From a virus, in the IMG/VR virus record IMGVR_UViG_3300032241_002034, positions 1 through 50,124 of that record: DNA of 50,124 nt. The stretch is one strand, 5' to 3'. Below, piece by piece: positions 1-14,721 of this stretch. The position numbers and the translations under genes were made by a program. Below the pieces are notes generated by a model. It worked only from the letters and a program-made list of their open reading frames with translations. It was not told where the DNA came from and made no database searches. Position 1 is the first letter of the stretch, and each line of letters starts with the position of its first letter.

Positions 1-535
1 AAGAATTAAAATGATCAGGTGCTTTGTATGTAGTACACCATGCTGAGTCTTTTCCATCTTCTTCACAGTCTCTAAAAGCAAATTTTGATAGACCTAGTTT
101 ACGGGATGCCTCATGTGTGTGTGGAGATATAATTAGTAAATTGGAATTATCTATTACCGTGTCGTAATCGTTTTCAAGGTCCTTAACAGAAACACCTTCA
201 CTGGATTTATTTATAGCATCTACCTCAGAATGTAAATCTTTAAAAGATTTAAACTGATTGATGTCTTTAGTTTTTGTTTTACCCTTGTTTAAAAAAACAT
301 TAAACTCTTCTACTGTATTTCTTAAATCATCTATATCAGGTTTATTATTAATAAACACTTTAGTCATCCATCCTACATATTTTTTTTGAGGTGTTGGGTC
401 AGCTGTTATTAGTTTTTCCAAATCTTCTTTAGATAACTTACCCTGATCAACATACTGTTTAGCTAACTTTAGGTTTTCTAAAATATAGCTTTTATTTGAA
501 TGTGTTAATCGCTTGCTTTCTGTTAGTAGGTTCAT
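1..535 (-). CDS. Hypothetical phage protein with N-terminal (L/I)xE tag, C-terminus beyond window
   Basis: Open frame of 178 codons that starts at ATG 535 and runs off the left edge without a stop, so it is partial at its C-terminus. It begins MNLLTESKR, a short version of the tag seen on many neighbours, with L-T-E as the possible cut site. The middle is lysine-rich and helical. Near the edge it carries DSAWCTTYKAP; tryptophan-cysteine motifs of this kind recur in phage proteins of unknown function. It follows the repeat protein at 560-1336 by 24 bases and is probably cotranscribed. Function unknown. Confidence 0.7.
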   Translation of the reverse strand, partial: MNLLTESKRLTHSNKSYILENLKLAKQYVDQGKLSKEDLEKLITADPTPQKKYVGWMTKVFINNKPDIDDLRNTVEEFNVFLNKGKTKTKDINQFKSFKDLHSEVDAINKSSEGVSVKDLENDYDTVIDNSNLLIISPHTHEASRKLGLSKFAFRDCEEDGKDSAWCTTYKAPDHFNS

Positions 536-559
536 ATTTTTTATAGTTTAATCATTATT

Positions 560-1336
560 TTATATGTAAATTTTACCTTTAATCCCCGGTACCATTTTTT
601 TAATTTGGGCTTTTGTGTATTTTTGAGCAAGTGGAGTATTATTTAACCAAAGATCACCACCAACTTGCAAATTGTCAGGTAGTGATGTGATTGGAGTACC
701 ATTCAAATCAAGATTACCACCAACTTCTAAATTGTTAGGTAATGATGTGATTTTAGTACCATCTAAATCAAGATAACCACCAAATTTTAAATTGTCAGGT
801 AATGATGTGATTTTAGTACCACTCAAACCAAGATTACCATCAACGTGTAGATTGTCAGGTAGGGATGTAATTGGAGTATTCCTTAAATAAAGACTACCAC
901 CAACTTTTAGATTGTCAGGTAGCGATGTGATTGGAGTATTATTCAAATAAAGATGACCACCAACTTGCAAATTGTCAGGTAATGATTTAATTTTAGTTTG
1001 CTGTAAATCAAGATAACCACCAACTTTTAGATTGTCAGGTAGTGATGTAATTGGAGTATTCTGTAAATCAAGATTACCACCAACTTCTAAATTGTTAGGT
1101 AAAGATGTGATTAGAGTATCGTCCAAAAAAAGATCACCTCCGACTTTTAAATTGTTTGGTAGAGAGGTAATTGGAGTACCAGTTAAAATAAGATCACCTT
1201 CTTCTCCGTTTTTTATATATTGTTGTATTTTTTTTTGGGCAGTAATAAGATGATTTTTTTGACGTTCTTCAGGAGAGCGTCTTGGAACTAATATTTTATT
1301 AGCTTCTTCTTTTAGTATGTCTATTAGTTTAATCAT
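560..1336 (-). CDS. Leucine-rich-repeat-like solenoid protein with tag
   Basis: A 258-residue protein. Residues 1-10 (MIKLIDILKE) are the ten-residue tag with L8-K9-E10. After a basic helical stretch, residues about 47-237 are nine near-perfect 20-residue repeats of the form ITSLPDNLxVGGxLxLxxT, which should fold as a leucine-rich-repeat-like beta solenoid. Residues 238-258 are a basic tail. Such repeats usually bind protein, but no ligand can be read from the sequence. The repeats are also conserved at DNA level with a 60-base period, so copy number may change by recombination. It is the second of a run of tagged genes. Confidence 0.8.
   Translation of the reverse strand: MIKLIDILKEEANKILVPRRSPEERQKNHLITAQKKIQQYIKNGEEGDLILTGTPITSLPNNLKVGGDLFLDDTLITSLPNNLEVGGNLDLQNTPITSLPDNLKVGGYLDLQQTKIKSLPDNLQVGGHLYLNNTPITSLPDNLKVGGSLYLRNTPITSLPDNLHVDGNLGLSGTKITSLPDNLKFGGYLDLDGTKITSLPNNLEVGGNLDLNGTPITSLPDNLQVGGDLWLNNTPLAQKYTKAQIKKMVPGIKGKIYI
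626..1198 (-). repeat. 60-bp tandem repeat array encoding LRR-like units
   Basis: Nine near-identical 60-bp units in frame inside the gene at 560-1336. Each unit holds the coding equivalent of SLPDNL-VGG. Most differences between units are single bases, so the array looks recently amplified or homogenised. Confidence 0.85.
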
Positions 1337-1337
1337 T

Positions 1338-2012
1338 TTACTTAGTCAACATCATATAAGTTATACCACCTATTACAATACCCGCTGCTATTTTAGTAAA
1401 TTTATTTTTAAATTTAAGTTTTTGATTTTCTAATTGCAATGTATTGTATTGGAATTTCCAATCTGATATTTGTGTGCTTTGGTTAGATACTATTTTCTTA
1501 TATGATCCTTCTTTTTTAACGTAAGTTGTTATAATACTATCTTTACCATTTAACCTTAAACTATCTAATCCTATAATAGTATCTTTAACTTTAAGTAATT
1601 CTTTAGCACCATCAAATTCTACTAAATCTTTAGCTGTAGACACTAATACTGGTTTAGCTACTTCTAGTTTGTTACTTATTGTATCAGTTGGATAACGCTT
1701 ATTAAATGTTGATACTAATTCAGTATCATTTAAGTTATTAATTTTAGCTTTTTCCGTTTCTACATGTTGAACAATAAATTGTGTTTTACTTTTTACAACA
1801 TTTAATTGAGCTAATAAAGCACCATCTTCTTCATTTAATTCCATAATTGTAGAATCATCATGTTTGATATCTAAAATTAATGAGTCTACTTCATGTACTA
1901 AACTATCTTGTTTGTGCGTAAATTCTTTAGTTAATCCAACATTGCTTATTTTATCAAAAGCAAAATATCCCAATACTAAAACAACTAAAATTCCTAAAAC
2001 GATTTTTTTCAT
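1338..2012 (-). CDS. Coiled-coil protein with membrane segments at both ends
   Basis: A 224-residue protein. Residues about 4-20 form a hydrophobic helix (VLGILVVLVLGYFAF), residues about 30-190 are charged and heptad-like with DSLVHEVDSL and similar repeats, and residues about 206-222 form a second hydrophobic helix (KIAAGIVIGGITYMML). This predicts a membrane-anchored coiled coil. Membrane fusion (spanin-like) or a virion-internal role are possible, but there is no lipobox and it is far from the endolysin. It ends one base before the repeat protein region and starts three bases after the 2016-3068 gene. Function unknown. Confidence 0.7.
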   Translation of the reverse strand: MKKIVLGILVVLVLGYFAFDKISNVGLTKEFTHKQDSLVHEVDSLILDIKHDDSTIMELNEEDGALLAQLNVVKSKTQFIVQHVETEKAKINNLNDTELVSTFNKRYPTDTISNKLEVAKPVLVSTAKDLVEFDGAKELLKVKDTIIGLDSLRLNGKDSIITTYVKKEGSYKKIVSNQSTQISDWKFQYNTLQLENQKLKFKNKFTKIAAGIVIGGITYMMLTK

Positions 2013-2015
2013 ATA

Positions 2016-3068
2016 TTATTTTTTTATTCCAGCGTAAAATTGCCATTTGCCCATTACCCATTCATCTAATGGTTCTTCTTCTTCCTCTTCATCCGGTTCA
2101 ATAACAGGTTCTGGTGCTGCTATTGGAGTACCACCTGCTATTTTTTTAACGTAATCTGATTTGTTAATTAAATCATTGATTCTTTTTTCTAATGATATTT
2201 TTAAATCTTCTAAACGTTGTAATTCAGATGATGGTTTATCTTTTAAATCACCAGCTGTTGTTTTACCACGTTTTAATTTTAATATATTACCCTTAGTAGC
2301 AGCTAAACGACGAGATAATTCAGAATATTTTAATGAATCTTCAAAATCTTCATCTGATACTTTAGGTACATTAATTGGATGTGTTTTTTCAATATCACCT
2401 ACTGTTGGTTCTTCTTCATCATTAAAATCTTCTTCACCATTAGTGTTTGGTTTATTATCAAAATAAGCTGCTAATGGATCTTCTTCTGGTTCTTCTTCAT
2501 GATCTTCTTCACCACCTGCTACTGGAGCTTTAGTTGGTTCTTCACCTATTTTAGTTAATATACCTGAATCCATCAATGCATTTACTAATGCATTAGTAAT
2601 TTGAGGGCGAACAAATTTAAAATGTTGTTGAATTTGCTTTTTCTCAGTACCTGGATTTTCACGGAAATATTCAATAATATCTGATAAAGGAACACCACTT
2701 ACTTTTTTATTTGCAAATGCGCTTGTATCAACATCAGGATCTGATAATTGAAATCCTTTAGCAATACGAGCTAATTCATTTATATCTAATGATGATACAC
2801 CAGGTTGTGATAAGTTTTGCATTTTCTTTTGAACATATGCAATTTTCTTATTAATAGCTGCTATTTCAGCGTCTTGAGCTGGTTTTTGATCAGGTGACAC
2901 TGTAGTACTGCTTAGAGTAGACTTGTGTTGTTGTAAAGCTTGTAATTGTTTAATAGAGGCTTCCTTAGCTGCTTCCTCAGCTGCTTCGTCAGCGGCTTCG
3001 TCTTCTCTTAGATTAATAGTTTCATTAATCATTTCGCGTACTAATCTACGAAGTTGTTTAGCTTTCAT
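2016..3068 (-). CDS. Tagged acidic protein with winged-helix-like domain
   Basis: A 350-residue protein from ATG 3068; an upstream in-frame ATG at 3098 would add ten residues. I prefer 3068 because an AATATTTAT element overlaps codon 1 of the longer form, and because the short form begins with a typical tag, MKAKQLRRLVREMINE, with I-N-E as the possible cut. The middle region (PLSDIIEYFRENPGTEKK followed by a predicted recognition helix and DSGILTKIGE) looks like a winged helix. It is flanked by long acidic, alanine- and glutamate-rich linkers. The domain suggests DNA or protein binding. The tag suggests packaging. Both are inference. Confidence 0.75.
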   Translation of the reverse strand: MKAKQLRRLVREMINETINLREDEAADEAAEEAAKEASIKQLQALQQHKSTLSSTTVSPDQKPAQDAEIAAINKKIAYVQKKMQNLSQPGVSSLDINELARIAKGFQLSDPDVDTSAFANKKVSGVPLSDIIEYFRENPGTEKKQIQQHFKFVRPQITNALVNALMDSGILTKIGEEPTKAPVAGGEEDHEEEPEEDPLAAYFDNKPNTNGEEDFNDEEEPTVGDIEKTHPINVPKVSDEDFEDSLKYSELSRRLAATKGNILKLKRGKTTAGDLKDKPSSELQRLEDLKISLEKRINDLINKSDYVKKIAGGTPIAAPEPVIEPDEEEEEEPLDEWVMGKWQFYAGIKK

Positions 3069-3096
3069 TGTCTTTAATTCAGTTAGTGTTATATCC

Positions 3097-3105
3097 ATAA
3101 ATATT
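3097..3105 (-). promoter_or_regulatory. AATATTTAT late-type element
   Basis: Coding-strand AATATTTAT, 28 bases before ATG 3068 and overlapping the alternative ATG at 3098. It supports the shorter start of the following gene. Confidence 0.35.
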
Positions 3106-3622
3106 AAATGTTTTGTAAGATTGTAGCAATACGTTCCTCAGTAGTGCCTTTAATGTAAATTAATTTATTTGGTTTGTATTCTTCTAATGCTTCTTTAATT
3201 GTCCAATCTATTTTATCACGATATTCAGGATCAATAGTGCGAACACCATTATCTTCTAATTCAACGCCTTCAGGTAATACATAAAATACTATATCATAAT
3301 ACGAACGCATTGTCATAGCTGCTTCAACAAAATCACGCTTAGTAAACCAATCAATTGATTTAGATGATAATGTAAATGCACTTACGTCCCATATTGTTCT
3401 ATCAGTAATAATATTTTCACGTAATAATTCACTTGCGCGTTCAGCTAAAAATATAAATTGACCTAATATTGTAGAATCATTGTTTAATGGAATACCTAAA
3501 TCACGTAAATATTTACTACGTTCAGTAGCAATATAATAATCTTTAAATTGATCTAGTTCGCCTAGTGCTTTTGCTAATGTAGTTTTACCTACAGACATTG
3601 TACCTGCTAATCCTATTTTCAT
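3104..3622 (-). CDS. P-loop kinase, NadR/AAA_28-like
   Basis: A 172-residue P-loop NTPase. The Walker A motif GTMSVGKT is at residues 7-14. Overall length, the TERSKYLRDLG segment and the later DRTIWDVSAF segment resemble the NadR-type ribosylnicotinamide kinase / AAA_28 family, with deoxynucleotide kinases as the other option. It would phosphorylate a nucleoside or nucleotide with ATP. No (L/I)xE tag is present. The ATG overlaps the stop of a 24-codon reading frame (3619-3693) as ATGA, so translation may be coupled. The substrate cannot be told from sequence. Confidence 0.75.
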   Translation of the reverse strand: MKIGLAGTMSVGKTTLAKALGELDQFKDYYIATERSKYLRDLGIPLNNDSTILGQFIFLAERASELLRENIITDRTIWDVSAFTLSSKSIDWFTKRDFVEAAMTMRSYYDIVFYVLPEGVELEDNGVRTIDPEYRDKIDWTIKEALEEYKPNKLIYIKGTTEERIATILQNI

Positions 3623-3693
3623 AATACTTTTTTAAAATATGTTGGTGGTAAAGATACATCATTTGCTTTGACATAATTTGGATTCATATTCAT
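3619..3693 (-). CDS. Possible 24-residue leader peptide, coupled to kinase
   Basis: A short reading frame MNMNPNYVKANDVSLPPTYF followed by four more residues. Its TGA overlaps the ATG of the kinase gene. It could be a translated leader, a remnant of a longer N-terminus, or chance. The exact stop-start overlap and the lack of another gene in the 148-bp gap are the only support. Confidence 0.3.
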   Translation of the reverse strand: MNMNPNYVKANDVSLPPTYFKKVL

Positions 3694-3770
3694 CTATTGT
3701 TCATGCTTTTTATTTTCACAAATAAAATACAATTTTGAAAGCTTATGTAATACTATATCTCCTACGTAAA

Positions 3771-3974
3771 TCATTTGTCATTTATTTTTTTCATTTGACG
3801 AGCTGTGCGGCGATCATCTTTAGCTTGTTTAATCCTTTTATTCCAATTCTTTGTTTTGTCAGCGCCGTTTTTGTATTTAATATCTACCTGTATTGGACCA
3901 TTGGGGAATTTGTCAGTATCAAACGTCCATACTTCAGTAGTATCTTCGTGCTCATATGTGCGGGTAAATTTCAT
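3771..3974 (-). CDS. Small basic hypothetical protein
   Basis: A 67-residue protein beginning MKFTRTYEHEDTTEVWTF. The first half looks like a beta hairpin domain with aromatic residues (EVWTFDTDKFPNGPIQVDI). The last 25 residues are a strongly basic helix (KNWNKRIKQAKDDRRTARQM). It starts ten bases after the U-tract of a hairpin terminator, so it may depend on read-through. No family recognised. Confidence 0.6.
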   Translation of the reverse strand: MKFTRTYEHEDTTEVWTFDTDKFPNGPIQVDIKYKNGADKTKNWNKRIKQAKDDRRTARQMKKINDK

Positions 3975-3984
3975 AATGTAAAAT

Positions 3985-4008
3985 TAAAAAAGGGATCTTG
4001 ACGATCCC
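3985..4008 (-). terminator. Rho-independent terminator after the 4036-4440 gene
   Basis: On the minus strand a perfect 6-bp stem GGGATC/GATCCC with loop GTCAA is followed by TTTTTT. It lies 27 bases beyond the stop of the upstream gene. Confidence 0.75.
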
Positions 4009-4035
4009 AATTTTATATTCTTTATGCTATTATAA

Positions 4036-4440
4036 TTAAATATCTAAATCACCTAAAATATCTTCTACACCTTTTTTAGGTTTAGCAGCGATTGCAGGGT
4101 TTGTATTTTGATATCCTTCTTTAGCTACTAATCCTTTTTCTTCTAATTGATTGAATAATGGATTAATCGCTGGTTGAGGTACTCCTTTTTCTCTAGCATA
4201 ATCTACTTTTTGTACTCTTTTGCCTTCTTTAGCTGCTTTAAATAAGAAAACTAAAACTGCTACTTGACTAGCTCTAAGTCCTGCAGGTAATTCACCTGTA
4301 GCTTTTGCTTGCTTTAATACGTCTTCACCTTCTGGTGTAATACTATATGCACCGCCTGTATTAGCTGTACGAGCCATTTCAGGAAGAGACATTTCTTGAA
4401 TTGTATTTTTGATTACTTTTCTAAGTTCAGATAATTTCAT
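4036..4440 (-). CDS. Tagged winged-helix-like protein
   Basis: A 134-residue protein. Residues 1-16 (MKLSELRKVIKNTIQE) form an amphipathic helix ending in I14-Q15-E16, the tag pattern. The middle (SQVAVLVFLFKAAKEGKRV, then REKGVPQPAINPLFNQLEEKG) has the helix-turn-helix and wing layout of MarR-like winged helices, with PQPAINPLFNQLEEKGLV as the likely recognition helix. DNA binding is plausible. It is the second tagged winged-helix protein here, after 2016-3068. A strong terminator follows it. Confidence 0.7.
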   Translation of the reverse strand: MKLSELRKVIKNTIQEMSLPEMARTANTGGAYSITPEGEDVLKQAKATGELPAGLRASQVAVLVFLFKAAKEGKRVQKVDYAREKGVPQPAINPLFNQLEEKGLVAKEGYQNTNPAIAAKPKKGVEDILGDLDI

Positions 4441-4456
4441 TGTTGGAATGTTTACA

Positions 4457-4465
4457 ATAAATATT
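4457..4465 (-). promoter_or_regulatory. AATATTTAT late-type element
   Basis: Coding-strand AATATTTAT ends 16 bases before ATG 4440. No GGCAAAA box lies upstream. Confidence 0.4.
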
Positions 4466-4466
4466 A

Positions 4467-4721
4467 TTAAACTCTAGCTCCCGCCGCTTTTCCCGCTGCT
4501 GTTTTATACCATGGTTGACCATTGATATCTTTCTTTCTATCTCCCCATTGGTCTTTAGTGTATTTAAAACTAAATAACCAATATTCAGATGCGCGTTTAT
4601 TGCCTTTAGGTATATAAGCCGGTCCATCCCAATTATGCATCATTTTTTTTCCATCAAGTTCAATATAATGTACAATCGTTCCGTCTTCTGTTTTAATTTT
4701 TTTAGTTCCTAATTCTCCCAT
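4467..4721 (-). CDS. Small conserved-looking phage protein
   Basis: An 84-residue protein starting MGELGTKKIKTEDG. It contains LDGKKMMHNWDGPAYIPKG and EYWLFSFKYTKDQW, a pattern (HN-x-DGPA-x-x-P-x-G ... EYW) that I know from many large phages, where the function is unknown. The tail is Ala/Gly-rich and basic. An overlapping frame at 4427-4627 is a shadow. Its stop lies 27 bases before the start of the winged-helix gene. Confidence 0.7.
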   Translation of the reverse strand: MGELGTKKIKTEDGTIVHYIELDGKKMMHNWDGPAYIPKGNKRASEYWLFSFKYTKDQWGDRKKDINGQPWYKTAAGKAAGARV

Positions 4722-4750
4722 CGTTTTTGTTTAAAGTTATAAAAAAATAG

Positions 4751-6052
4751 TTATATAGCCAAATTTTCCGCTATGTAAATGCCGTGTGCACCTGATACTG
4801 TAATACCTCTAGCTGATAAAGCATCACCAGCAAAGTGTACATTTGGGTAATCGTTTAATGATAAATCTGTATAGTTTACTAATGGTTCAGGTGATAAGTA
4901 CTTTACTTCAGGAATATACATTCCCCAATCATATCCAAAATCAAATACTTTTTTCATATCAGCAATAAAGTTGATAATATAATCAGCATATTCACCTAAT
5001 GCTTCTTTAAATACATTTAAAGTACTAATTTGACTAGCATTTACAGTTGTACCTTCAGATGTATTTGATGGAGTACGCGTAGCTGAATAATATAAACCAG
5101 TACCATTATGTTGTAATTTTTGTACTACATCTCTACTCCACTTAAACGGATCTTCAATACCTTTAATTTCCATTAAAATACCAAAATTGGTCATATCATT
5201 TCTAAATTCCTCACCTTTTTTAGCGTGACCGTTGTAGCTAATATCACCATATGTTTCCTCTACTGCTACATAAGCTGCATTATTGTTAGTACAGAATGAG
5301 CGAATAGATACATTATCGTGTTTTTGATATAACTTAAAGTCATAAGATACATCAATTAATTTCTGGAAGTATTTTTGTGGTGCTTCAAATCGAACACCAA
5401 TTTGTACTGCTTTGGCTTCAGTTGGTAATTGATATTGGTCTGATAATGCTTGAGCAAAATCAATACCTGATTTACCTACTGCAAATATTAATTCATCATA
5501 TTCAATCCATTCTTGCTGTGGTTCAAAGTGCCATTTTCTAAAAAAATGAACTTTATTATTTGCAAATTCAATTTTGTCTACTTCAGTTTCCCATTCAAAC
5601 TTAACACCTTTATCTAACAAATATTGATACCAATTTTTAGCAATCTCATGTAAATAATTTGAACCAATGTGCCATACAAGTGACATACGTAAGTCAAAAT
5701 ACGGTTTAATAAATTCAGGTTCTTCCTTAGGATCAGAACATGAAATATCTTCTGGTTTAGGGTGAAAACGAGTAAAATTAGCTACTACTTCATTCATTAA
5801 TTCCATAGCTTTTTCCTCACCACAATACTTAGACAATTGTCCCCCTTGTACTGTTGATACTACTAATTTACCATCTGACCAGCCACCAGCACCTAGCATA
5901 CCAGTCATTACCTCTTCGGGTAAGCGGTTAATTGGGTCATTACCCTTATCTATAATAGTAATTAAATTACCATCGTAGCCGTTATCTACTAATTTTGTAG
6001 CAGCATTAATACCTGCTACTCCAGCCCCAATAATTACAATTTTTTTAGCCAT
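4751..6052 (-). CDS. FAD-dependent oxidoreductase, COG2509-like
   Basis: A 433-residue flavoprotein. The N-terminal Rossmann motif is G9-A-G11-V-A-G14, followed by a GMLGAGGWSDGKL segment (about 51-63) that resembles the GAGxxSDGKL motif of COG2509 FAD-dependent dehydrogenases. The C-terminal FAD motif HFAGDALSARGITVSGAHG (about 406-424) is intact. It should bind FAD and catalyse a redox reaction; the substrate is unknown. Its start overlaps the stop of denV by 8 bases, so the two are one operon. A full-length flavoprotein of this type is unusual in a T4-like phage and was probably acquired from a cell. Confidence 0.8.
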   Translation of the reverse strand: MAKKIVIIGAGVAGINAATKLVDNGYDGNLITIIDKGNDPINRLPEEVMTGMLGAGGWSDGKLVVSTVQGGQLSKYCGEEKAMELMNEVVANFTRFHPKPEDISCSDPKEEPEFIKPYFDLRMSLVWHIGSNYLHEIAKNWYQYLLDKGVKFEWETEVDKIEFANNKVHFFRKWHFEPQQEWIEYDELIFAVGKSGIDFAQALSDQYQLPTEAKAVQIGVRFEAPQKYFQKLIDVSYDFKLYQKHDNVSIRSFCTNNNAAYVAVEETYGDISYNGHAKKGEEFRNDMTNFGILMEIKGIEDPFKWSRDVVQKLQHNGTGLYYSATRTPSNTSEGTTVNASQISTLNVFKEALGEYADYIINFIADMKKVFDFGYDWGMYIPEVKYLSPEPLVNYTDLSLNDYPNVHFAGDALSARGITVSGAHGIYIAENLAI

Positions 6053-6404: not shown

Positions 6405-6408
6405 AGGA

Positions 6409-6432: not shown

Positions 6433-6446
6433 TTTTAATAGAAGAT

Positions 6447-6508: not shown

Positions 6509-6841
6509 CTAGTCTATAATTAATCCAGCTAATTGCTTCATTCTTTTAATTTCGTTAATTTGTGTTTTTATTTGTTTATTTTTTATTTTTGATTCTCCAA
6601 TTGCTGGTTTGTTCATTTTAGCTACTGTAGCACGAACATCTTGTCCGTTACTATCTTTAACAATAGCATCATAATCGTCCATTGTTAATGTTTTTCCTTC
6701 TTCGCTCATTGATAAAATATTCTCAGTTGCTACGTGTAAATCTAAATCGGTTTTAGCGTCTTCACGAGCAAATTCTAATAAACGAATAAATAAAGGTACA
6801 TCTACCTTAATAACATCTGTTGGGTTATAATGTGGTTGCAT
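6509..6841 (-). CDS. Hypothetical protein with C-terminal KRMKQLAGLIID motif
   Basis: A 110-residue helical protein starting MQPHYNPTDVIKVDVPLF. Residues about 12-75 contain FIRLLEFAREDAKTDLDLHV and an acidic segment. The C-terminus, INEIKRMKQLAGLIID, closely resembles the N-terminal tag of the next gene upstream (KRFQKLAGILKEA), so the motif appears to be used at either end of a protein. It ends one base after the neighbouring gene begins its frame. Function unknown. Confidence 0.65.
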   Translation of the reverse strand: MQPHYNPTDVIKVDVPLFIRLLEFAREDAKTDLDLHVATENILSMSEEGKTLTMDDYDAIVKDSNGQDVRATVAKMNKPAIGESKIKNKQIKTQINEIKRMKQLAGLIID

Positions 6842-6842
6842 A

Positions 6843-7292
6843 TTAAACTACTTTGTAAGTGTTATTGCCTATTTTTAAATCAGTAATAGTTTTTAAATTT
6901 ACTATTCTGTAGGCACGTTTAGGAATGTCAAAAACAGGAATTAATCCTTTAGCATCAGCATCATAAGGTAGTTCACCACCTTTTAAATATGCTTTAACAC
7001 CTAAACGAGCATTCATTACACGAGTAGTACCATCTTTTTTAATAAATGTTACTGTAAAGAATTTACCTTTAGTGTCTTTAATTAATTTTTTAGCTTCATC
7101 TTTAGATATAGTTCCAGACGGTTTCTCAGGAGTAGGTGATTCTTCGGGTTCTTCCTCAGGTTCTTCCTTAGGTTCTTCTTCAGCCGTTTCCGGTGTTTCA
7201 TCAGGTACATTCTCATCGGGCTTTATTTCTATTGCCTCTTTTAATATACCTGCTAATTTTTGAAAGCGTTTGAATTCTTTAATTAATTCCAT
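6843..7292 (-). CDS. Tagged protein with SH3-like C-terminal domain
   Basis: A 149-residue protein in three parts. Residues 1-19 are the tag (MELIKEFKRFQKLAGILKE, with L17-K18-E19). Residues about 24-60 are a Pro/Glu-rich linker with EEEPEESPTPE. Residues about 62-149 are a compact beta domain (FFTVTFIKKDGTTRVMNARL and FDIPKRAYRIVNLKTI). The KKDGTxR-x-MNARLG pattern resembles SH3-barrel proteins (DUF2693-like) common in phages of Bacteroidota. Function unknown. Confidence 0.7.
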   Translation of the reverse strand: MELIKEFKRFQKLAGILKEAIEIKPDENVPDETPETAEEEPKEEPEEEPEESPTPEKPSGTISKDEAKKLIKDTKGKFFTVTFIKKDGTTRVMNARLGVKAYLKGGELPYDADAKGLIPVFDIPKRAYRIVNLKTITDLKIGNNTYKVV

Positions 7293-8148: not shown

Positions 8149-8361
8149 TTACCCTAGTTCTTCAAAATCATCATCTCTATCTATGTAAAAAGTGTCAGTA
8201 ACACCTTTATCATTAGATAAATGTAATTTAATATCGTTGCCTATTGGCCTAATTTGATCTACAGTTACTTTATCACCTTTTTTAAAATTACCTATTTCAC
8301 CGGATAACGTAAACACATCACTAACTTTAATAGATATAGCTTTAATTTCGCTTAATTTCAT
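8149..8361 (-). CDS. Small SH3-like hypothetical protein
   Basis: A 70-residue protein. It begins MKLSEIKAISIKVSD, with a possible short tag (L3-S4-E5), and continues as an all-beta domain: FTLSGEIGNFKKGDKVTVDQI, then IKLHLSNDKGVTDTFYID. The GxFKKGDKVTV pattern is typical of SH3/KOW-like barrels that bind nucleic acid or protein. It follows the 8372-8950 gene by ten bases. No family assigned. Confidence 0.6.
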   Translation of the reverse strand: MKLSEIKAISIKVSDVFTLSGEIGNFKKGDKVTVDQIRPIGNDIKLHLSNDKGVTDTFYIDRDDDFEELG

Positions 8362-8371
8362 TTTATATATT

Positions 8372-8950
8372 TTAAGTTGTTTCTTCTTCAGGTGTTGGTG
8401 TTTCTTCTTCAGGAGCCGGAGTTGGAGCTGGAGCTGCGCCTGCTGGAGGTGCTGTTGTTTCAGGACCAGCTGCTGCTAATTCAGGACCTAATTCTGCTGC
8501 TGATGTACCCGGTGCTTCAGGAGCTGGTGCTCCAGGAGCTGCTGGTGTAGCAGGTGCTTGTTCTTTACCCTCTGATGGAGCGTAATTTAATTCTAATAAG
8601 TCTGCTATAGCTTGAGATGCACTTTCTTGGTGACCAATATTCATCATATTGTATTTCTTACCAGCTATTTTTACATCCCATTTTTTATTACCTAAATACT
8701 TAATATTAAAATCTTGTCCATTAATTAAATCAACTTTGAAAGTTGTTGGTTTTGGAGCAATAATTTCAATATTGTTAACGTAGCGACCAAAAGCAGGAGA
8801 CATTAATTCTTCTATTACCTTTTTTAAACCAGGAAAGCGGTGCACCAAGTACATCGCTTTTTCTGCTTTTCGCTGTTGTTCTTCTTGCTCTTTAAGAGCT
8901 TTTTTAACAGCTACCTTAACGTATTTTTCTAATATTAGTTTTTTGTTCAT
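8372..8950 (-). CDS. Tagged protein with Ala/Pro-rich tail
   Basis: A 192-residue protein. Residues 1-21 form a basic amphipathic helix (MNKKLILEKYVKVAVKKALKE) with tag-like I-L-E and L-K-E sites. Residues about 30-125 are an alpha/beta domain including FKVDLINGQDFNIKYLGNKK. Residues about 128-192 are a low-complexity Ala/Pro/Glu tail that ends PTPEEETT. Start and stop touch neighbouring genes (overlap of one base with 8950-9423), indicating an operon. Function unknown. Confidence 0.65.
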   Translation of the reverse strand: MNKKLILEKYVKVAVKKALKEQEEQQRKAEKAMYLVHRFPGLKKVIEELMSPAFGRYVNNIEIIAPKPTTFKVDLINGQDFNIKYLGNKKWDVKIAGKKYNMMNIGHQESASQAIADLLELNYAPSEGKEQAPATPAAPGAPAPEAPGTSAAELGPELAAAGPETTAPPAGAAPAPTPAPEEETPTPEEETT

Positions 8951-9423
8951 TATATTTCTTCTGATTCTTCAGCTTCTTCTTCAGCTATAGATTCTTTAAC
9001 GCTATGAATGTAATCTGATGCTAATGTAATATAAGCTGCTATCCAACCTGGAAGTTCATCTTCTGGGCTGATTAATTGATAAAGTTTAGAACCAGCCATT
9101 AACATACTGCGTAATTCAGCTTTAGCCATTTCACCATTAGGACCTTGATTTTCCTTCATTGCCATTGCTTTAGCAATTGCAGCACGGTGTTTCATAATAT
9201 ATTTATCTTGGCTATTTACTTTACCATCGTTATTAACGTCAGCGTCTTCATGGCCAACAGGATCTAATGTTTCGTGAACGCCCATAGCTTTAGAAGTTGC
9301 AATTGCACCTGCTTTAGCACTAGACATACCTTTTTTCTTTAATTTATCATATATCTTACCACGCTTCTTTATTTCAGAAGATGTCATATGTGCTTCAGAT
9401 AATAAATTAGATAACTTTATCAT
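8950..9423 (-). CDS. Tagged EF-hand-like calcium-binding protein
   Basis: A 157-residue protein. The tag is residues 1-10 (MIKLSNLLSE, L8-S9-E10). A basic helical segment follows (YDKLKKKGMSSAKAGAIATS, about 25-44). Residues 62-73, DVNNDGKVNSQD, fit the 12-residue EF-hand/dockerin loop with Asp/Asn ligands at positions 1, 3, 5, 9 and 12, so calcium binding is likely. The C-terminal third is helical and acidic. Start and stop overlap both neighbours by one base. Function unknown. Confidence 0.7.
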   Translation of the reverse strand: MIKLSNLLSEAHMTSSEIKKRGKIYDKLKKKGMSSAKAGAIATSKAMGVHETLDPVGHEDADVNNDGKVNSQDKYIMKHRAAIAKAMAMKENQGPNGEMAKAELRSMLMAGSKLYQLISPEDELPGWIAAYITLASDYIHSVKESIAEEEAEESEEI

Positions 9424-9965
9424 TATTTCTTGAATTTATTCTTTTCCCAATATCCTTTAGGTAAACCTTCTTCTTTTACTCTAGCGGTTTGTTTAGCAGT
9501 TGGACCTGTACCAGCGCCATGCATTTTAGCGTTAGCTACAGCACCAGCAATTTTAGTAGCAGCTTCTTTAGATTTATGACCTTTCTTTTCAATACTTTTT
9601 TCTACTGATGTAAAAGATTCTTCTAAACTTTTCATTTGCTCTTCTAATTCAGCTTTCTTTTCTTCTAAATCTTGAATGCTTTTTTCTAAATCATCATGTA
9701 AATCACTAATGATTTCTGGAGTAACAAAATGGTGCATATTCACAGGAACAGCAGCTTTAATTTCTTTTACTTCATTGATATCTTCTTCAATTTTATTAAT
9801 TTTAGCTTGTAAAGCGGCTTTATCACCAGCTTCATCAATCATCTTTAAACGATTTTCTACTGATGCACTATGTTTAGATTTCTTAGGTGCTTTTTTAGTT
9901 GCTTTTTTATCTTTAGCTTCTGCTATTAAACTACGCACGTATAGACGTAATGCTGAATTGTTCAT
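9423..9965 (-). CDS. Tagged coiled-coil protein
   Basis: A 180-residue, lysine-rich protein. The N-terminus MNNSALRLYVRSLIAEAK carries SLIAE|A, nearly the T4 sequence FIAE|A. Residues about 20-35 are very basic (KKATKKAPKKSKHS). Residues about 50-130 form a long coiled coil with EEDINEVKEIK and DLEEKKAELEEQMKSLEE. The C-terminus is Gly/Ala-rich and basic, ending YWEKNKFKK. A DNA-associated internal head protein would fit this composition; that is inference. First gene of the block 9965-8372. Confidence 0.7.
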   Translation of the reverse strand: MNNSALRLYVRSLIAEAKDKKATKKAPKKSKHSASVENRLKMIDEAGDKAALQAKINKIEEDINEVKEIKAAVPVNMHHFVTPEIISDLHDDLEKSIQDLEEKKAELEEQMKSLEESFTSVEKSIEKKGHKSKEAATKIAGAVANAKMHGAGTGPTAKQTARVKEEGLPKGYWEKNKFKK

Positions 9966-9984
9966 TTATTTTATGTTTATATGT

Positions 9985-9993
9985 ATAAATATT
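9985..9993 (-). promoter_or_regulatory. AATATTTAT late-type element
   Basis: Coding-strand AATATTTAT ends 19 bases before ATG 9965 and sits just past the stop of the preceding gene. Confidence 0.45.
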
Positions 9994-9999
9994 ATATTA

Positions 10000-10782
10000 T
10001 TACCATTTACGACAAGACCAATAGTTGGCTTTCCAACGTGGTCCCGGGCTATCACAATGATGTCTTTTACGATATGCATTACGATGTTTAGGATTGTTAC
10101 GTTTAATATTCATGCCGTGAGCACCAAAATTAACTTTAACAACTTTACCCTTATTATTTTTAACGTATACTTTAAATTTTTTAGTATCACCTTGCATTGG
10201 TTTACCTAACGTTACTTTTCTACCATGATATTCAGCTTCAGTAATACAATCACAAGTAGCTTCAGCTAAGAATGTTTGATATTCTTTCATGAATTGAATA
10301 AACTCTTTTAAGTCTTGTTCGTTTTCAACATCATATTCATCTATATCACCATATAAAGGACCATTATCGTGTCCACATTTATGACAAACGTATGTATCTT
10401 TACCTCCGTTTTCTATTTCCCATTGCCATCCACAATCTTCACAAGTAACAGTTGTTTCTTCATTTTCGTTAATAGGTACACAATTAGGTACCATTCTACC
10501 GTTTTTTTCTTTTTCACCAATTTGTTTATAACCTTTCCAACATGGTGATTTTTCAGCTAATATTTCGTCTATTTCACTTGTTAAATATTTTACAGCACCT
10601 GTTTTTAAATCAGCTTTAAGATTGCCTTTGTACGTTACAGGTGTATCACTTCCTACATATTGTATTGTAGCTTCTCCAGTAGTGTAAAGATTTTTAGCGT
10701 TTACTACTTTGAATTTTTTACCATTCTTATCTACGTAATAATCTACTCGATCTTCATTTAATATGTTTAGTAGCTTTATCAT
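10000..10782 (-). CDS. Tagged mosaic protein: zinc ribbon plus DUF5872-like C-terminus
   Basis: A 260-residue protein starting at ATG 10782; longer frames upstream only read through the previous gene. Residues 1-10 (MIKLLNILNE) are the tag. Residues 81-103 hold CWKGYKQIGEKEKNGRMVPN and CVP, a motif I recognise from many marine phage proteins. Residues 114-136 are a zinc ribbon, C114-x2-C117 and C133-x2-C136. Residues about 185-260 (KKFKVYVKNNKGKVVKVNFG to KANYWSCRKW) resemble DUF5872, also phage-associated and of unknown function. The whole looks like a fusion of phage cassettes. Confidence 0.75.
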   Translation of the reverse strand: MIKLLNILNEDRVDYYVDKNGKKFKVVNAKNLYTTGEATIQYVGSDTPVTYKGNLKADLKTGAVKYLTSEIDEILAEKSPCWKGYKQIGEKEKNGRMVPNCVPINENEETTVTCEDCGWQWEIENGGKDTYVCHKCGHDNGPLYGDIDEYDVENEQDLKEFIQFMKEYQTFLAEATCDCITEAEYHGRKVTLGKPMQGDTKKFKVYVKNNKGKVVKVNFGAHGMNIKRNNPKHRNAYRKRHHCDSPGPRWKANYWSCRKW

Positions 10783-10783
10783 A

Positions 10784-11035
10784 TTAATTTGTTGGCTCCC
10801 ACCAATCAGAGCAATATTCTTTAGGGTTAAACGGTAATACTTTTTGGCCTGACCATTCTTGATAATGTTCATTTCCACATTCCCACTCACCTAATTCTTC
10901 ATTATTTTCAAAATAGCGGCAATTAGCACAACAAGCACCTCCTTCAGGTACTCTCATTGCTGGTTTATGGTCTTTAGGTAATTCGTACTTACCTCCACCA
11001 TATTCTTCTTTTAATAAGTCAGTTAATTTAATCAT
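10784..11035 (-). CDS. Tagged small cysteine protein, HiPIP-like motif
   Basis: An 83-residue protein. The tag is MIKLTDLLKE with L8-K9-E10. Cysteines at 35, 36, 39, 53 and 75 lie in the pattern PEGGACCANCRYF, WECGN, EYCSDWW. The spacing and the final YCSDW resemble high-potential iron-sulfur proteins, so a [4Fe-4S] cluster is possible; a zinc site is the alternative. If packaged, it would be a metalloprotein carried in the head. It abuts the next gene with a one-base gap. Confidence 0.65.
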   Translation of the reverse strand: MIKLTDLLKEEYGGGKYELPKDHKPAMRVPEGGACCANCRYFENNEELGEWECGNEHYQEWSGQKVLPFNPKEYCSDWWEPTN

Positions 11036-11310
11036 TAGAAGTCAGGTTCGTTGTTTGTATGAATATTAGCCATTGGAGAACCTTTATCAACACCTTGTCT
11101 ATCATATTTGGTATGATGTTTTTCATGCGCTGAATCGGCATGCATCATTATGTCTGAGGTGTATTTTGCTATAAATTCAGGATCATTTGTTTCAAGGATT
11201 TTTTCGCATAACTCTTTAATTTTGTTAATATGATCACGCCAATGCATTTGATGATATTCGGGATCGGGGTGGTTTTCTGTTTCCACCAACATGTCCATTA
11301 GTTTAATCAT
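11035..11310 (-). CDS. Tagged small histidine-rich helical protein
   Basis: A 91-residue protein beginning with the ten-residue tag MIKLMDMLVE (L8-V9-E10). The rest is helical and rich in His (HPDPEYHQMHWRDHINKIKE and ADSAHEKHHTKYD), which hints at metal binding but fits no motif I know. It overlaps the upstream gene by eight bases and the downstream one by one, so it is part of an operon. Confidence 0.65.
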   Translation of the reverse strand: MIKLMDMLVETENHPDPEYHQMHWRDHINKIKELCEKILETNDPEFIAKYTSDIMMHADSAHEKHHTKYDRQGVDKGSPMANIHTNNEPDF

Positions 11311-11593
11311 GATTTTTTAATTTAGCATTTTCGGCTGATAAGAATTCAACTTTTATTTTTAATTCGGCTACGGAAGCAGTTAATTTAAGAATTAAACCAC
11401 GCATTTCGTCTTTTTCTTTACCCGCAGCCTCTAATAATGCTTCTAGTTTAGCTATACGATCTCTACAATCATGACGGATGAATTGTTCATCTCTTTCTCT
11501 AGTTTCAGCACGTTTTTCATAGAAACGCCAAGCCGACGCTCCTCCCAAAACCGTTATAGCTGTTATAGCTACTGACCAGATATTTGCATCCAT
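11303..11593 (-). CDS. Membrane-anchored coiled-coil protein
   Basis: A 96-residue protein with one N-terminal membrane helix (WSVAITAITVLGGASAW, about 6-22), then a charged coiled coil (KRAETRERDEQF; LEALLEAAGKEKDEMRGLIL; AELKIKVEFLSAENAKLKN). The topology matches many phage holin-accessory or i-spanin-like proteins, but no lysis genes adjoin it. It starts a small operon running to 10000 behind an AATATTTAT element. Function uncertain. Confidence 0.65.
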   Translation of the reverse strand: MDANIWSVAITAITVLGGASAWRFYEKRAETRERDEQFIRHDCRDRIAKLEALLEAAGKEKDEMRGLILKLTASVAELKIKVEFLSAENAKLKNHD

Positions 11594-11624
11594 TTATAGA
11601 AGTATTAACAATTAGTTATTACCT

Positions 11625-11633
11625 ATAAATATT
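11625..11633 (-). promoter_or_regulatory. AATATTTAT late-type element
   Basis: Coding-strand AATATTTAT ends 31 bases before ATG 11593 and overlaps the TAA of the upstream gene. Confidence 0.4.
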
Positions 11634-12216
11634 ATGAGCCCACAGCATCCTTAAGTTTTTGAATGTATTCTTGTATTTCTCCTATTAGTTGTTGTTTATT
11701 TCCATCTTTACCTTTCCAAGTTTCAATATCACCATCTTCAGTTACAAATGAATCGTTAGATTGTTCCATTAATAATTCTAATAATACATCCTCCATTTCT
11801 TTAATATGAACTCTAGCGCCTTGACGAATTATGGATAATTGATATTCATCAAATAAACCTTCTTTTTTTAATTGAGCTTCATGTTCAATAACACAATCTA
11901 AACATTTTTGATGAATAGAATACATGTATTTATCAGATTGACCTTTAGTCATTGGTTTTTTACAATTAGGACATACTAAAGGCATAACAACCATACGTTT
12001 TACTTCGTCAAAACGAGTTACAGTTTGCTTTAAACCATTTTTAATAGTCCATTGTTTACCATCTTGTTCCCAAACATCACCTTCTTTATGCTCTACATAT
12101 CCAGCAGTATAACCTACTTGAACACCTGTCTTAGCACCATAATCTTTTGTAATAATATTTCGCATGCGTTGTACGTCACGTTCTTTAAACTGACGTTGCA
12201 TCATTGAATCGCTCAT
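11632..12216 (-). CDS. Zinc-finger phage protein of unknown function
   Basis: A 194-residue protein. The first part is basic and includes QFKERDVQRMRNII and a WEQDGKQWTIKNGLKQTV segment. A zinc site is formed by C82-x2-C85 (CPNCKKPM) and C105-x2-C108 (HQKCLDC). The C-terminal half is acidic and helical (KEMEDVLLELLMEQ). I recognise the CPxCxxPM...HxKCxDC pattern from other T4-like phages, where the role is unknown. The ATG overlaps the stop of the nucleotidase gene (ATGA), so translation is coupled. Confidence 0.7.
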   Translation of the reverse strand: MSDSMMQRQFKERDVQRMRNIITKDYGAKTGVQVGYTAGYVEHKEGDVWEQDGKQWTIKNGLKQTVTRFDEVKRMVVMPLVCPNCKKPMTKGQSDKYMYSIHQKCLDCVIEHEAQLKKEGLFDEYQLSIIRQGARVHIKEMEDVLLELLMEQSNDSFVTEDGDIETWKGKDGNKQQLIGEIQEYIQKLKDAVGS

Positions 12217-12680
12217 AGACCTAATTTTTTAAGTTCACTAATTGTATTTGTTGCTGAGGTATGATGTATACCTATTCCACCTTTATTTTTCCATTCTTTA
12301 ATTGTTACTTCCATATCATCAATTAGTATATGTTCTGGAGCAGCAAATCGCTGTTTTTCATGTCTTGGGTAAAAATATACTTTATCATATTGGTTTGGAA
12401 TATGAATCTTTAACCAAGCATCTTTACCAACTTTAGATGTAATACTACGAGAGGGAGAAGATAAAATATTAGGTTTATATTTCCTAATATAATTCCATAA
12501 CGTGTGTCCATCAGACATCCACTCTAGATTAGCCCAAAATGCGGGACCCTCATTATCTATTGGAGCCCAAAATGAACTATCTCCTTTGACATAAGTAGAA
12601 GTATCTACTCTTGTTAAATCGTAATAACCTTTTTCAAAATTGACAAGGACACCGTCCATATCACAATATATTGTATACAT
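12213..12680 (-). CDS. HAD-family 5'(3')-deoxyribonucleotidase-like protein
   Basis: A 155-residue HAD phosphatase. The catalytic motif DMDGVLVNFE has the nucleophile D7 and acid/base D9. Size and the later HILIDDMEVTIKEW segment fit the deoxyribonucleotidase (NT5C) family, which removes phosphate from deoxynucleoside monophosphates. In a phage it would adjust nucleotide pools during DNA synthesis. It precedes the zinc-finger gene with a four-base overlap and follows the 675-residue gene by 13 bases. Confidence 0.8.
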   Translation of the reverse strand: MYTIYCDMDGVLVNFEKGYYDLTRVDTSTYVKGDSSFWAPIDNEGPAFWANLEWMSDGHTLWNYIRKYKPNILSSPSRSITSKVGKDAWLKIHIPNQYDKVYFYPRHEKQRFAAPEHILIDDMEVTIKEWKNKGGIGIHHTSATNTISELKKLGL

Positions 12681-12693
12681 AACTTAATTTATT

Positions 12694-14721
12694 TTACATG
12701 TCTTCAAATTCATCGTTATAATTTTCTATAACCATGACATCTACTTTAATAGGATTAGTAATATTAAATACTTCTTTTTCAGGAAAAAGACTTAATTTAG
12801 TTATAAAATTTGGATTAAAATACAAATCAGCATCACCTGCTTTAGCTCTCATTACTGCTGGTTCTCCTCCATTACGCTCTGCTGTAGATACAGCAAAAGT
12901 AGCTGCAGTATAGTAATCTGTACTCCATGATTGTACTTTACGCTTGGAAGAATATTCTTGATTTAATATTATTTCACCTTGTTTATAAAATTCAGTTTCG
13001 GAACCCTTTAATAATTTTTGTAAATTTGATTTACTTATTGCTGTTCCTCTGTAAATATAACTTGTATCTGGTATTTTAGGATCTCCTATTTCTGGATATT
13101 CTCGTTTTATTTGTTTAAAAATAGGAATATATGAGTCTAAATTAATATTACTATACGTTGATGATTCAGAGTTAACATATTTTTTTAAAGTATTAAATAA
13201 AGCTCTTTCAGCAGGAGTATCTATTTCTTTTTCACTATCATACCATTTTATATCAACTCCAGATTCTTTATCCCCAAAAAGGTAATTCCCGAATTTTTTT
13301 TTTGCCTCGTAAATTTCAGTATGCTGTTGACCGAATTTTCTTAATAATACACCCGCTTGAGCGTTTGCTTCATTTTCAATTTCAGATCCAGTTTCACCAC
13401 TTCCTTGCTCAATTCTACCTTCTTCATCTTGTTTACGATGTACTAATTCATGTGCTAATGTTCTTAACGCATCAGCCATTACTCTATGACCAAAATATAG
13501 CCAAATTGACTTACTATTTGGATCAAAATATCCAAATGTATGTAATTCTTTAGCTTTTTCAGCATCATGAGATATAGTTAATTTAGGTACAGATTTTAAA
13601 CCTAATTCTTTAATAGCAAACTTTAAAAAAGCATGTATGGTATTATTTTGGTCTTTATGTAGTTTACCTTCAGTAATTGGCGGTGAAATACTACCATGCA
13701 TTTTCATATTAATATTACCTTGTAATACAGTAGGAATAGAACCTAATGCTCGGTAAATAGATAATATTACCTCACCTCCAACTAACCAATAACCTTGATT
13801 GTAATTTAATACTAAAGGTAAAGGAATATCATCACCGGATTTAATAGCATCAATATATGGTTTAGGATCAATACCTAATTTTAATGAATGTTGAATAGCA
13901 TCATCTAATGTTTTCATTTTATATGACTTACTATTCTGTAAGTTTTCCCACATTTCATCTGATAATACTACTTCATTTCCTGTTTCAAAAGCATATTGAA
14001 TGTCTGGTATAGGTATATTAAATGTTTCAGATGTTTTTTCAATCTTAGGCATTGCTTTTAATACTAAATCTTGATAAGGGCTAGTACTAGCTTCAGGTTG
14101 AGATTCATGCATTGAACCAGCTGTGTAATTCATGTATCTAGGATCTATCTTAGGTAATTCAGGTTGAATTTGTTTATCAATAGCAGCTAAAAAATCTATT
14201 ATAGAAATGCCTTCAGGAACATGTTCTTCAAAGTCTTTATCTTTATTATTTATAGCATTTTTTAAACCAAGATCATGTGCATCTTCTAATTCACTAGCGT
14301 CCATTAATTCTACGTTAGGATATTTATGCATACCTTTATAACGTTCCATTTCACCTCTACTTAAAGCAATAATGAATTTATCTTTTGGATTTGATCTTAC
14401 AATATCTAATATTTCAATCATAGGAGTACTACTTGAAATATCTACTTCGATATCTTTAGGTAATAAATCCTTATATAGATTCCAAACATTAACACTATGG
14501 TCAGCGGTAACACCGCCTTGACTATCAGGAGTTATTAATACTACTACTTGATTTGCTTTTTCACCTAATTCTCTAGCAACCTCAAAATTGCCTTTATGAG
14601 GTGGTTTATTTGTTGTTGGATATATCCCCACAACAGAACGTGCTTCTGTTTCTAGTAAAGTTGAAGCTAAGTATTTACCTAATTTTAGGCCAAGTGAGTC
14701 CACTTTATTCATAATTGCCAA
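12694..14721 (-). CDS. Multidomain protein: nucleotidylyltransferase-like, ParB-like, HExxH peptidase and ADP-ribosyltransferase
   Basis: A 675-residue protein with four visible parts. Residues 1-24 are a tag ending T-L-L-E. Residues about 29-150 resemble nucleotidylyltransferases (GIYPTTNKPPHKGN, a variant of HxGH). Residues about 297-335 (PLPLVLNYNQGYWLVGG) resemble ParB/Srx-like proteins. Residues 420-455 contain the zinc peptidase motif H424-E-L-V-H428 with a candidate third ligand near E447-E451. Residues about 550-655 fit an R-S-E ADP-ribosyltransferase: YRGT with R558, SWST at 598-601, and E648-K-E650. T4 Alt is likewise a packaged, tag-bearing ADP-ribosyltransferase that modifies host RNA polymerase. 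Packaging and injection are inference. Confidence 0.8.
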   Translation of the reverse strand: MAIMNKVDSLGLKLGKYLASTLLETEARSVVGIYPTTNKPPHKGNFEVARELGEKANQVVVLITPDSQGGVTADHSVNVWNLYKDLLPKDIEVDISSSTPMIEILDIVRSNPKDKFIIALSRGEMERYKGMHKYPNVELMDASELEDAHDLGLKNAINNKDKDFEEHVPEGISIIDFLAAIDKQIQPELPKIDPRYMNYTAGSMHESQPEASTSPYQDLVLKAMPKIEKTSETFNIPIPDIQYAFETGNEVVLSDEMWENLQNSKSYKMKTLDDAIQHSLKLGIDPKPYIDAIKSGDDIPLPLVLNYNQGYWLVGGEVILSIYRALGSIPTVLQGNINMKMHGSISPPITEGKLHKDQNNTIHAFLKFAIKELGLKSVPKLTISHDAEKAKELHTFGYFDPNSKSIWLYFGHRVMADALRTLAHELVHRKQDEEGRIEQGSGETGSEIENEANAQAGVLLRKFGQQHTEIYEAKKKFGNYLFGDKESGVDIKWYDSEKEIDTPAERALFNTLKKYVNSESSTYSNINLDSYIPIFKQIKREYPEIGDPKIPDTSYIYRGTAISKSNLQKLLKGSETEFYKQGEIILNQEYSSKRKVQSWSTDYYTAATFAVSTAERNGGEPAVMRAKAGDADLYFNPNFITKLSLFPEKEVFNITNPIKVDVMVIENYNDEFEDM

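Follow-up and report, generated by a model that had tools for sequence, protein, structure and literature searches.

N-terminal peptides ending in [LI]-x-E as probable capsid-targeting propeptides on unrelated phage proteins

A set of phage proteins with different bodies begins with a similar short peptide that ends in [LI]-x-E, raising the question of what such a shared N-terminus is for. The genes were found in a stretch of 50,124 nucleotides (IMG/VR record IMGVR_UViG_3300032241_002034; "the window", always at its full length). Our preferred answer, with a probability of about 0.86, is that the peptides are capsid-targeting propeptides of a system of the type formed in T4 by the capsid-targeting sequence (CTS) and gp21, including packaging and cleavage of the proteins that carry them and, for one enzyme, its activation. 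In this phage and in related phages, dozens of unrelated proteins are probably taken into the head and trimmed there.

Tagged N-termini and their departure from chance

Five genes of the window (at 560, 8950, 10000, 10784 and 11035) encode the form MIKLxx[LIM]LxE exactly (class 1), as the first-pass annotation had reported and as we read directly from the DNA. Its wider list of fifteen tagged N-termini contracts to 12-13 credible ones. The variants at 1, 2016, 4036, 6843, 8372, 9423, 12694 and 30957 were accepted as tags (Table 1). The N-terminus at 34115 is ambiguous, because the gene sits in the baseplate cluster and its counterparts there are helix-only. The protein at 8149 fails as a tagged protein, with only MKLSE and no [LI]xE ending a helix, and with a body alignment that starts at residue 23. 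Within the span of 1-14.7 kb, where the tags are concentrated, the genes at 12213, 11632, 7318 and 3104 have no tag. Among called genes, 11/23 in this span carry a tag versus 1/57 elsewhere (Fisher p 1.3e-6, tags assigned by eye). Note that start sites come partly from a simple gene caller.

Table 1. Tags and related words in the window (caret, predicted cut; L-numbers, relative loci)
Feature	Position	Strand	Basis or remark
Tagged protein, MNLLTE^SK	1..535	-	sequence; short tag; start codon 533-535; 3' end off contig
Class-1 tag MIKLIDILKE^E on leucine-rich-repeat-like protein	560..1336	-	homologue L115:12125 has MIKLIDLLKE
Candidate tag ...LRRLVREMINE^T	2016..3098	-	sequence
Class-4-like tag MKLSELRKVIKNTIQE^M	4036..4440	-	sequence
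C-terminal scaffold-like word RMKQLAGLIID	6509..6841	-	homologues: N-terminal class-1 tag instead
Class-2 tag MELIKEFKRFQKLAGILKE^A on WYL_2 domain protein	6843..7292	-	same body with other tags in L091, L096, L126
Tag MNKKLILEKYVKVAVKKALKE^Q	8372..8950	-	tag kept in L090, L091, L094, L095, L096
Class-1 tag MIKLSNLLSE^A on dockerin-like protein	8950..9423	-	sequence, homologues
Tag MNNSALRLYVRSLIAE^A on coiled-coil protein	9423..9965	-	kept in L090; different tag in L091, L096
Class-1 tag MIKLLNILNE^D, two-domain body	10000..10782	-	ATG at 10782
Class-1 tag MIKLTDLLKE^E on small Cys-rich protein	10784..11035	-	sequence, homologues
Class-1 tag MIKLMDMLVE^T	11035..11310	-	sequence
Tag ...LGKYLASTLLE^T on multidomain protein	12694..14712	-	ATG 14712; homologues L094/L095 M[NK]LGEYLVNLLLE^E
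N-terminal-nucleophile hydrolase; peptide MKLLNIVKNILKPRLDE^ (...RLDE^C) directly before predicted catalytic Cys18	30957..31850	-	

AT-rich genomes favour N-termini rich in Ile, Lys and Leu, and the tags might in principle reflect chance or a DNA-level effect, such as recent copying of 5' ends or a start-codon context that the genes share. However, synonymous codons differ among the five class-1 genes (ATT/ATA, AAA/AAG, CTA/TTA/TTG), and no shared upstream DNA was found among them. An independent regular expression matched 10/80 window N-termini, compared to 1.4 expected from the internal frequency and a mean of 2.5 (maximum 8) in shuffles. A matrix trained on the window was then applied to other loci (160 relative loci and two relative genomes). 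It matched 148/2269 N-termini (6.5%), 0.18% of internal windows and 0.11% of C-termini, and shuffles yielded a mean of 4.7 matches (maximum 12). At the strict threshold, the match rate was ~36-fold lower in internal windows and ~30-fold lower in shuffles than at N-termini, and two Bacteroidota-phage controls without an S77 protease gave 0/62 and 0/77 matches. Thus, an origin by chance or at the DNA level is scarcely credible.

Class-1 tags are few in Mel-JY01 and were not found in the stretches of MA9V-1 and LR756508 examined, indicating that this class is lineage-limited. A count of 53-89 tagged families was discarded, because single linkage had fused a giant family and a loose regular expression had admitted lipoprotein-like MKKLF starts.

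Tag register, exchange and head-gene context

In an alignment of 80 tagged, mostly unrelated proteins, only L4 and E10 form near-invariant columns; as the members were picked as tagged, this is an illustration and no test. Selection on Glu10 alone retained 164/1342 non-redundant N-termini, and in these hydrophobic residues peaked at positions 4 (L in 69), 7 (I/L in 86) and 8 (L/I in 103). In T4 IPIII, residues 4 and 7 function in targeting and residues 8 and 10 in processing, the two being separable (PMC9026906). The positions constrained here, 4, 7, 8 and 10, coincide with those that experiments have mapped in T4's CTS (PMC9026906), which supports the T4-like capsid-targeting interpretation of the first-pass annotation. 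Moreover, the tag closes, in the window and in relatives, with the L/I-x-E motif after which T4 gp21 cuts (PMC9026906). The T4 substrates gp24 (MAKINELLRE^S), Alt (MELITELFDE^D), gp22 (MLKEQLIAE^A) and IPIII (MKTYQEFIAE^A) are similar to the tags. Note that the window-trained matrix is a poor detector of T4's CTS, placing the T4 sequences at ranks 10-63 of 798 starts and none at the top.

The tags are modular, the same body being found with different tag types in different relatives. In the 6509 family, homologues begin with a class-1 tag, whereas the window protein ends in a scaffold C-terminal word of the QxLAGI type. A homologue of the two-domain protein at 10000..10782 (L090:11025) carries a class-1 tag directly on the second domain. 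The core protein itself contains the class-2 word, and a QxLAGI word ends the scaffold protein.

A prohead protease, which the first-pass annotation expected in the genome, is absent from the window, a 50 kb fragment, but S77 (the T4 gp21 family) adjoins the same operon in relatives. In syntenic relatives, the genes for terminase, portal, S77 protease, core and capsid (MCP) lie directly beyond the point where the fragment ends. Eight of the ten class-1-pattern matches in a 181 kb relative fall at 141.8-158.9 kb, adjoining S77 at 139.8 kb, and every match beginning with MIKL falls within this interval. The relatives' S77 proteases, one of them encoded at L002:14661-15242, themselves show [LI]xE^S near the start: P3 is L/I in 30/30 and P1' is S in 29/30. 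The site conserved in MCP departs from a strict [LI]xE, reading [IV]VxE in most cases (P3 V in 16, I in 3).

The tail-gene location of 30957 and 34115, and the capacity of an amphipathic helix to bind many partners, would fit a tag with a non-head partner or another destination (replication compartment, membrane or baseplate). This we consider very improbable, given that the tagged genes are grouped next to those for terminase, S77, core and MCP, that the class-2 word occurs on the core protein itself and that the register is that of T4's CTS.

In the capsid-targeting reading, a tagged protein in the infected cell would be brought by its tag into the scaffold core as the prohead grows. Targeting would depend on the hydrophobic positions 4 and 7 or, for tags of another class, on QxLAGI, the word with which the scaffold protein closes too. 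Once the shell has closed, the S77 prohead protease would cut after [LI]-x-E, freeing the mature cargo, which would remain alongside the DNA inside the head and probably enter the next host.

Alternatively, the tags may target the prohead but remain uncut in many proteins, or in some classes, with [LI]xE serving chiefly as a segment of an amphipathic helix that binds. Consistent with this, P1' varies (after class-1 tags it is I or V in 37/110, unlike the Ser of the protease's own site), class-2 words also occur at C-termini with no [LI]xE following, and the targeting and processing residues of T4 are separable (PMC9026906). Nevertheless, Glu is the most constrained residue, the protease's own N-terminus has the same ending, and the N-terminal nucleophile (Ntn) hydrolase fold of 30957 needs the Cys immediately after the Glu to be free. 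Persistence of uncut tags is therefore unlikely.

Predicted cargo and a putative Ntn proenzyme

The tagged protein at 12694 combines a nucleotidyltransferase-like part, a middle domain, a metallopeptidase motif (HELVH) and an ADP-ribosyltransferase (ART)-like C-terminus recognized by motif only. The domain assignments stem from CTP_transf_like and weak metallopeptidase matches, in homologue L094 only; separate homologues of domains were also found. In the AlphaFold model the ART part has low confidence, too poor for a fold call. Single-sequence patterns detected no full-length relative in viral contigs. The product of gene 1..535 had no Pfam or PHROG match, and that of 2016..3098 no homologue among the fetched relative loci. 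Tagged cargo in the phage and its relatives includes Zeta-toxin-like kinases, a Tad3 anti-Thoeris protein and a nucleotidase; PADLOC gave no convincing match on 80 tagged proteins. In Flavobacterium phage immuto, which grows on Flavobacterium sp. LMO8, the tagged proteins include gp082, gp083, gp087, gp092-095 and the product of the gene at 24569.

Relatives of 30957 were found by a search with a three-row alignment, a single-sequence search having given none. The predicted structure (pLDDT 88, pTM 0.87) matches 3gvz with Z 20.9, and IPN acyltransferase (IAT) and NAAA with Z 19-20. On superposition, Cys18 falls where IPN acyltransferase, acid ceramidase, PVA and BSH have their nucleophile (Z 16-20; chain residues 103, 143, 1 and 2, respectively). 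By the fold of this model, 30957 is a Cys Ntn hydrolase whose Cys opens the first strand. The Cys nucleophile is invariant in the family and is preceded by E in 49/49 homologues, with L/I at P3, completing [LI]xE, in 47/49. In divergent groups of the family the respective counts are 10/10 and 9/10. Apart from [LI]xE, the region before the Cys is variable. Among long contigs with a hydrolase of this type, 11/14 also carry S77. A pattern scan of genome contigs returned no cellular homologue, which is weak evidence of absence.

Several structural relatives are self-activated, and the residues before the Cys might likewise mark self-cleavage, as in acid ceramidase and IPN acyltransferase, with the prohead protease uninvolved. 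This explanation competes with the activation step alone and not with the tag reading overall. It is the less probable one, considering that only [LI]xE, the gp21 rule, is constant before the Cys and that 23/49 of the pre-Cys peptides hold a further tag-like word, h..hhxE. On balance, these sequence features favour a phage that packages an inactive Ntn hydrolase, its own prohead protease cutting at [LI]xE^Cys and the enzyme becoming active only in a head that is maturing, from which it could be delivered together with the DNA. The cut would expose the N-terminal Cys of the precursor, and head maturation would therefore activate the hydrolase. If so, capsid maturation doubles as zymogen activation. 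We found no paper in the open-licence literature that links an N-terminal nucleophile with the prohead.

Comparison with known systems

The tags would amount to a readable packaging code, from which it could be predicted by sequence, in a large group of aquatic phages, which unknown proteins travel in the head and reach the host at infection. They may also provide packaging tags for phages of Bacteroidota.

The 30957 family shares fold and Cys nucleophile position with the Cys Ntn hydrolases IPN acyltransferase, acid ceramidase, NAAA, PVA and BSH. Unlike these, it is a family of phage proteins in which the peptide before the Cys closes with a prohead-protease motif. The 12694 protein, with its nucleotidyltransferase-, metallopeptidase- and ART-like parts encoded beside virion genes, would be like the polyvalent proteins of Iyer et al. 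2017 (PMC5512222). It differs in that its ART and middle-domain assignments are weak, and the passages of PMC5512222 consulted do not describe tags of this kind.

In phiKZ and SPN3US, a gp21-like protease cuts the propeptides of the ejection (E) proteins on the C-terminal side of Glu (PMC9026906, PMC10052503). Common to those phages and the present one (here by prediction) are many head proteins processed after Glu by such a protease. Their propeptides are mostly long (111-254 residues in SPN3US), with S/A-x-E in phiKZ, in contrast to the short common tag found here.

Judged from sequence, the present system works like the CTS/gp21 system of T4 but is larger in scale and adds new features. Both have a 10-residue N-terminal peptide with hydrophobic residues at 4, 7 and 8, Glu10 and an L/I-x-E end. 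Both place it on unrelated cargo (IPI-III, Alt and gp24, cut by gp21, in T4) and have an S77 protease, here in the relatives. This likeness is one of form and register and need not mean descent from T4's CTS. Differences from T4 are the far larger number of cargoes, the exchange among four tag classes and the use of the scaffold's C-terminal word as a tag.

Distribution of the tags

In the window, a viral fragment of 50,124 bases, the first-pass annotation had listed about fifteen proteins with a short N-terminal tag ending in [LI]xE. Within 1-14,721, 11 of the 23 called genes carry strictly accepted tags, compared with 1 of 57 in the rest of the window (p = 1.3e-6), and the partial gene 1-535 is additionally tagged. 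All tagged window genes lie on the minus strand. The five exact MIKLxx[LIM]LxE N-termini claimed were confirmed as described; the synonymous codon choices of these genes differ and no upstream DNA is common to them, indicating that selection acts on the peptide. Most other listed genes were accepted, but 8149 was rejected as a tag-bearing protein and 34115 is doubtful. The helical N-terminus of the latter is conserved in synteny beside gp25 in Flavobacterium phage immuto and Microcystis phage Mel-JY01, and its product may be a baseplate protein instead of head cargo.

A scoring matrix trained on 13 window tags was run on other phages: 160 viral contigs (retrieved via the immuto/Mel-JY01 terminase and the window 11632 protein family), immuto, Mel-JY01 and one stretch of LR756508. 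The strict threshold yielded matches in 148 of 2269 N-termini, compared with 0.18% of internal windows and 0.11% of C-termini; shuffled controls gave 4.7 matches (maximum 12). The tags are thus not a product of chance. In threshold-9 matches the Glu was mostly residue 10 (93) or residue 9 (38). Two Bacteroidota-phage controls without S77, the prohead protease family of T4 gp21, gave 0/62 and 0/77 matches, each over its first 50 kb.

Elsewhere in the window, a small ORF contains a tag-like word distant from the cluster, and tail proteins of unusual composition have long Thr/Ser-rich linkers. A repeated promoter-plus-leader ahead of many small genes resembles a -33/-7 early promoter of the Bacteroidota type; translated as protein, it yields false N-terminal extensions (YIYVIKLK).

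Tag classes and features with their locations (^, predicted cut; L handles, loci of viral relatives)
Feature	Location	Sequence or detail
Tag class 1		MIKLxxLLxE
Tag class 2		RMQKLAGIxxE
Tag class 3		FDLRKFLxENKLTxxSxLLxE
Tag class 4		KKSxLxxIIxE
Zeta-toxin-like or related P-loop kinases, class 1	L100:2071, L107:7327, L099:7358, L094:6413, L152:6403	
Tagged Tad3 protein	L126:3582-4319	MRLVDILKE^G
Three adjacent Mel-JY01 paralogues	L007:10276-12718	MIKLxSL[LV]xE tags, VWH[LV]T start
S77 domain, Chryseobacterium phage MA9V-1	record 126606-126944	
Helical N-terminus	window 34115-34483	LFKKLIKEAVAEAIYEEL
Small ORF	window 49191-49358	internal MKVIDILLSE^A
Promoter-plus-leader repeat	window 41300-47900, minus strand	GGCAAA, ~20 bases, TACATTTACGTTATAAAATTAA, ATG
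Tail proteins	window 19044-22662	TTTTSTTTT

Exchange of tag classes

The tag classes are interchangeable, which is new. Different classes occur on one body in the gp80-like family and in the WYL_2 protein (window 6843 versus L091, L096 and L126), and in L090 the tag of the 10000-type protein is attached to the second domain alone. The scaffold core protein terminates in the class-2 word as well: Q.LAG[ILMV] was found at 14 N-termini and 31 C-termini, with none in 547,660 internal residues. Also new is a C-terminal tag that, judged from sequence, is scaffold-derived. Members of the PLFIRLLE family differ: some have a class-1 tag at the N-terminus, whereas window 6509 and others have a LAG word at the C-terminus in its place. 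This exchange suggests that a single prohead component is the destination of both peptides.

Prohead protease and Ntn hydrolase

In relatives that share the operon (contigs G001 and G003), it leads within a few kilobases into genes for the terminase, the portal, the S77 protease, the scaffold core and the major capsid protein. S77 (PF03420) was detected in immuto, Mel-JY01, MA9V-1 and T4; in MA9V-1 the domain sits inside a 1349-residue open frame, perhaps a fused polyprotein. The protease itself begins with a variable peptide closing in [LI]xE^S ([LI]xE in 30/30, Ser in 29/30), as T4 gp21 closes its own N-terminal peptide with LIE9 (PMC9026906). In our reading of the alignment, major capsid proteins have a conserved QI[VI]xE^[AQS] at the T4 gp23 cut position, with V commoner than I/L at P3.

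Homologues of the Ntn hydrolase 30957 were found in 80 viral loci and in Chryseobacterium phages MA9V-1 and MA9V-2; the G003 copy shares 81% identity with the window protein. In 49 distinct N-termini, most of them with a length of 7 to 29 residues, Glu always precedes the conserved Cys; at P3, 47 have L/I, one has M and one F, and P2 is free. Across 10 divergent groups, Glu holds in 10 and P3 L/I in 9. In the AlphaFold model (pLDDT 88) the tag is loose, the first strand starts at residue 19, and the position of Cys18 matches that of the nucleophile in IPN acyltransferase, acid ceramidase, penicillin V acylase and bile salt hydrolase. Ntn hydrolases of this kind require a free N-terminal Cys, so cleavage at the prohead-protease motif would turn the enzyme on. 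The main rival is self-cleavage. The motif by itself is no proof of which protease acts. S77 is present in 11 of 14 long contigs carrying the 30957-type gene, and the other three may be fragments. From the sequences, activation by the prohead protease is likely; a hydrolase activated in the prohead would be new.

Tagged cargo and likeness to T4

A Pfam search over 80 tagged proteins gave five Zeta_toxin matches (best 1e-17), WYL_2, LRR-like, dockerin-like and other domains, and a Tad3 anti-Thoeris domain (1.1e-32; residues 11-123) immediately after a class-1 tag. Among the five tabulated kinase loci, Pfam confirmed L100, L094 and L152. Tagged Tad3 and Zeta cargo is new. The Tad3 protein is possibly a pre-packaged counter-defence protein, for which T4 Ip1-3, injected inhibitors of type IV restriction, are a precedent (PMC12373910). 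A deoxyribonucleotidase has a tag in immuto (gp087) and in L111 but none in the window (12213). The start of the Mel-JY01 paralogues resembles ADP-ribosyltransferases by eye; the two searched had no Pfam match.

In the alignment of the 80 mostly unrelated proteins, only L4 and E10 are near-invariant, and N-termini picked by Glu10 alone are enriched in hydrophobics at positions 4, 7 and 8. In T4 IPIII the first ten residues are enough for packaging, positions 4 and 7 setting targeting and 8 and 10 processing, and gp21 cleaves after L/I-x-E (PMC9026906). The proposed large-scale T4-like capsid-targeting and processing system is supported, with packaging, cleavage and injection as predictions. 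Processed T4 N-termini have the same architecture (gp24 MAKINELLRE^S, Alt MELITELFDE^D, gp22 MLKEQLIAE^A, IPII/III MKTYQEFIAE^A), and T4 substrates rank only 10th to 63rd of 798 under the window-trained matrix. The likeness to the T4 capsid-targeting family is one of working, not of demonstrated descent.
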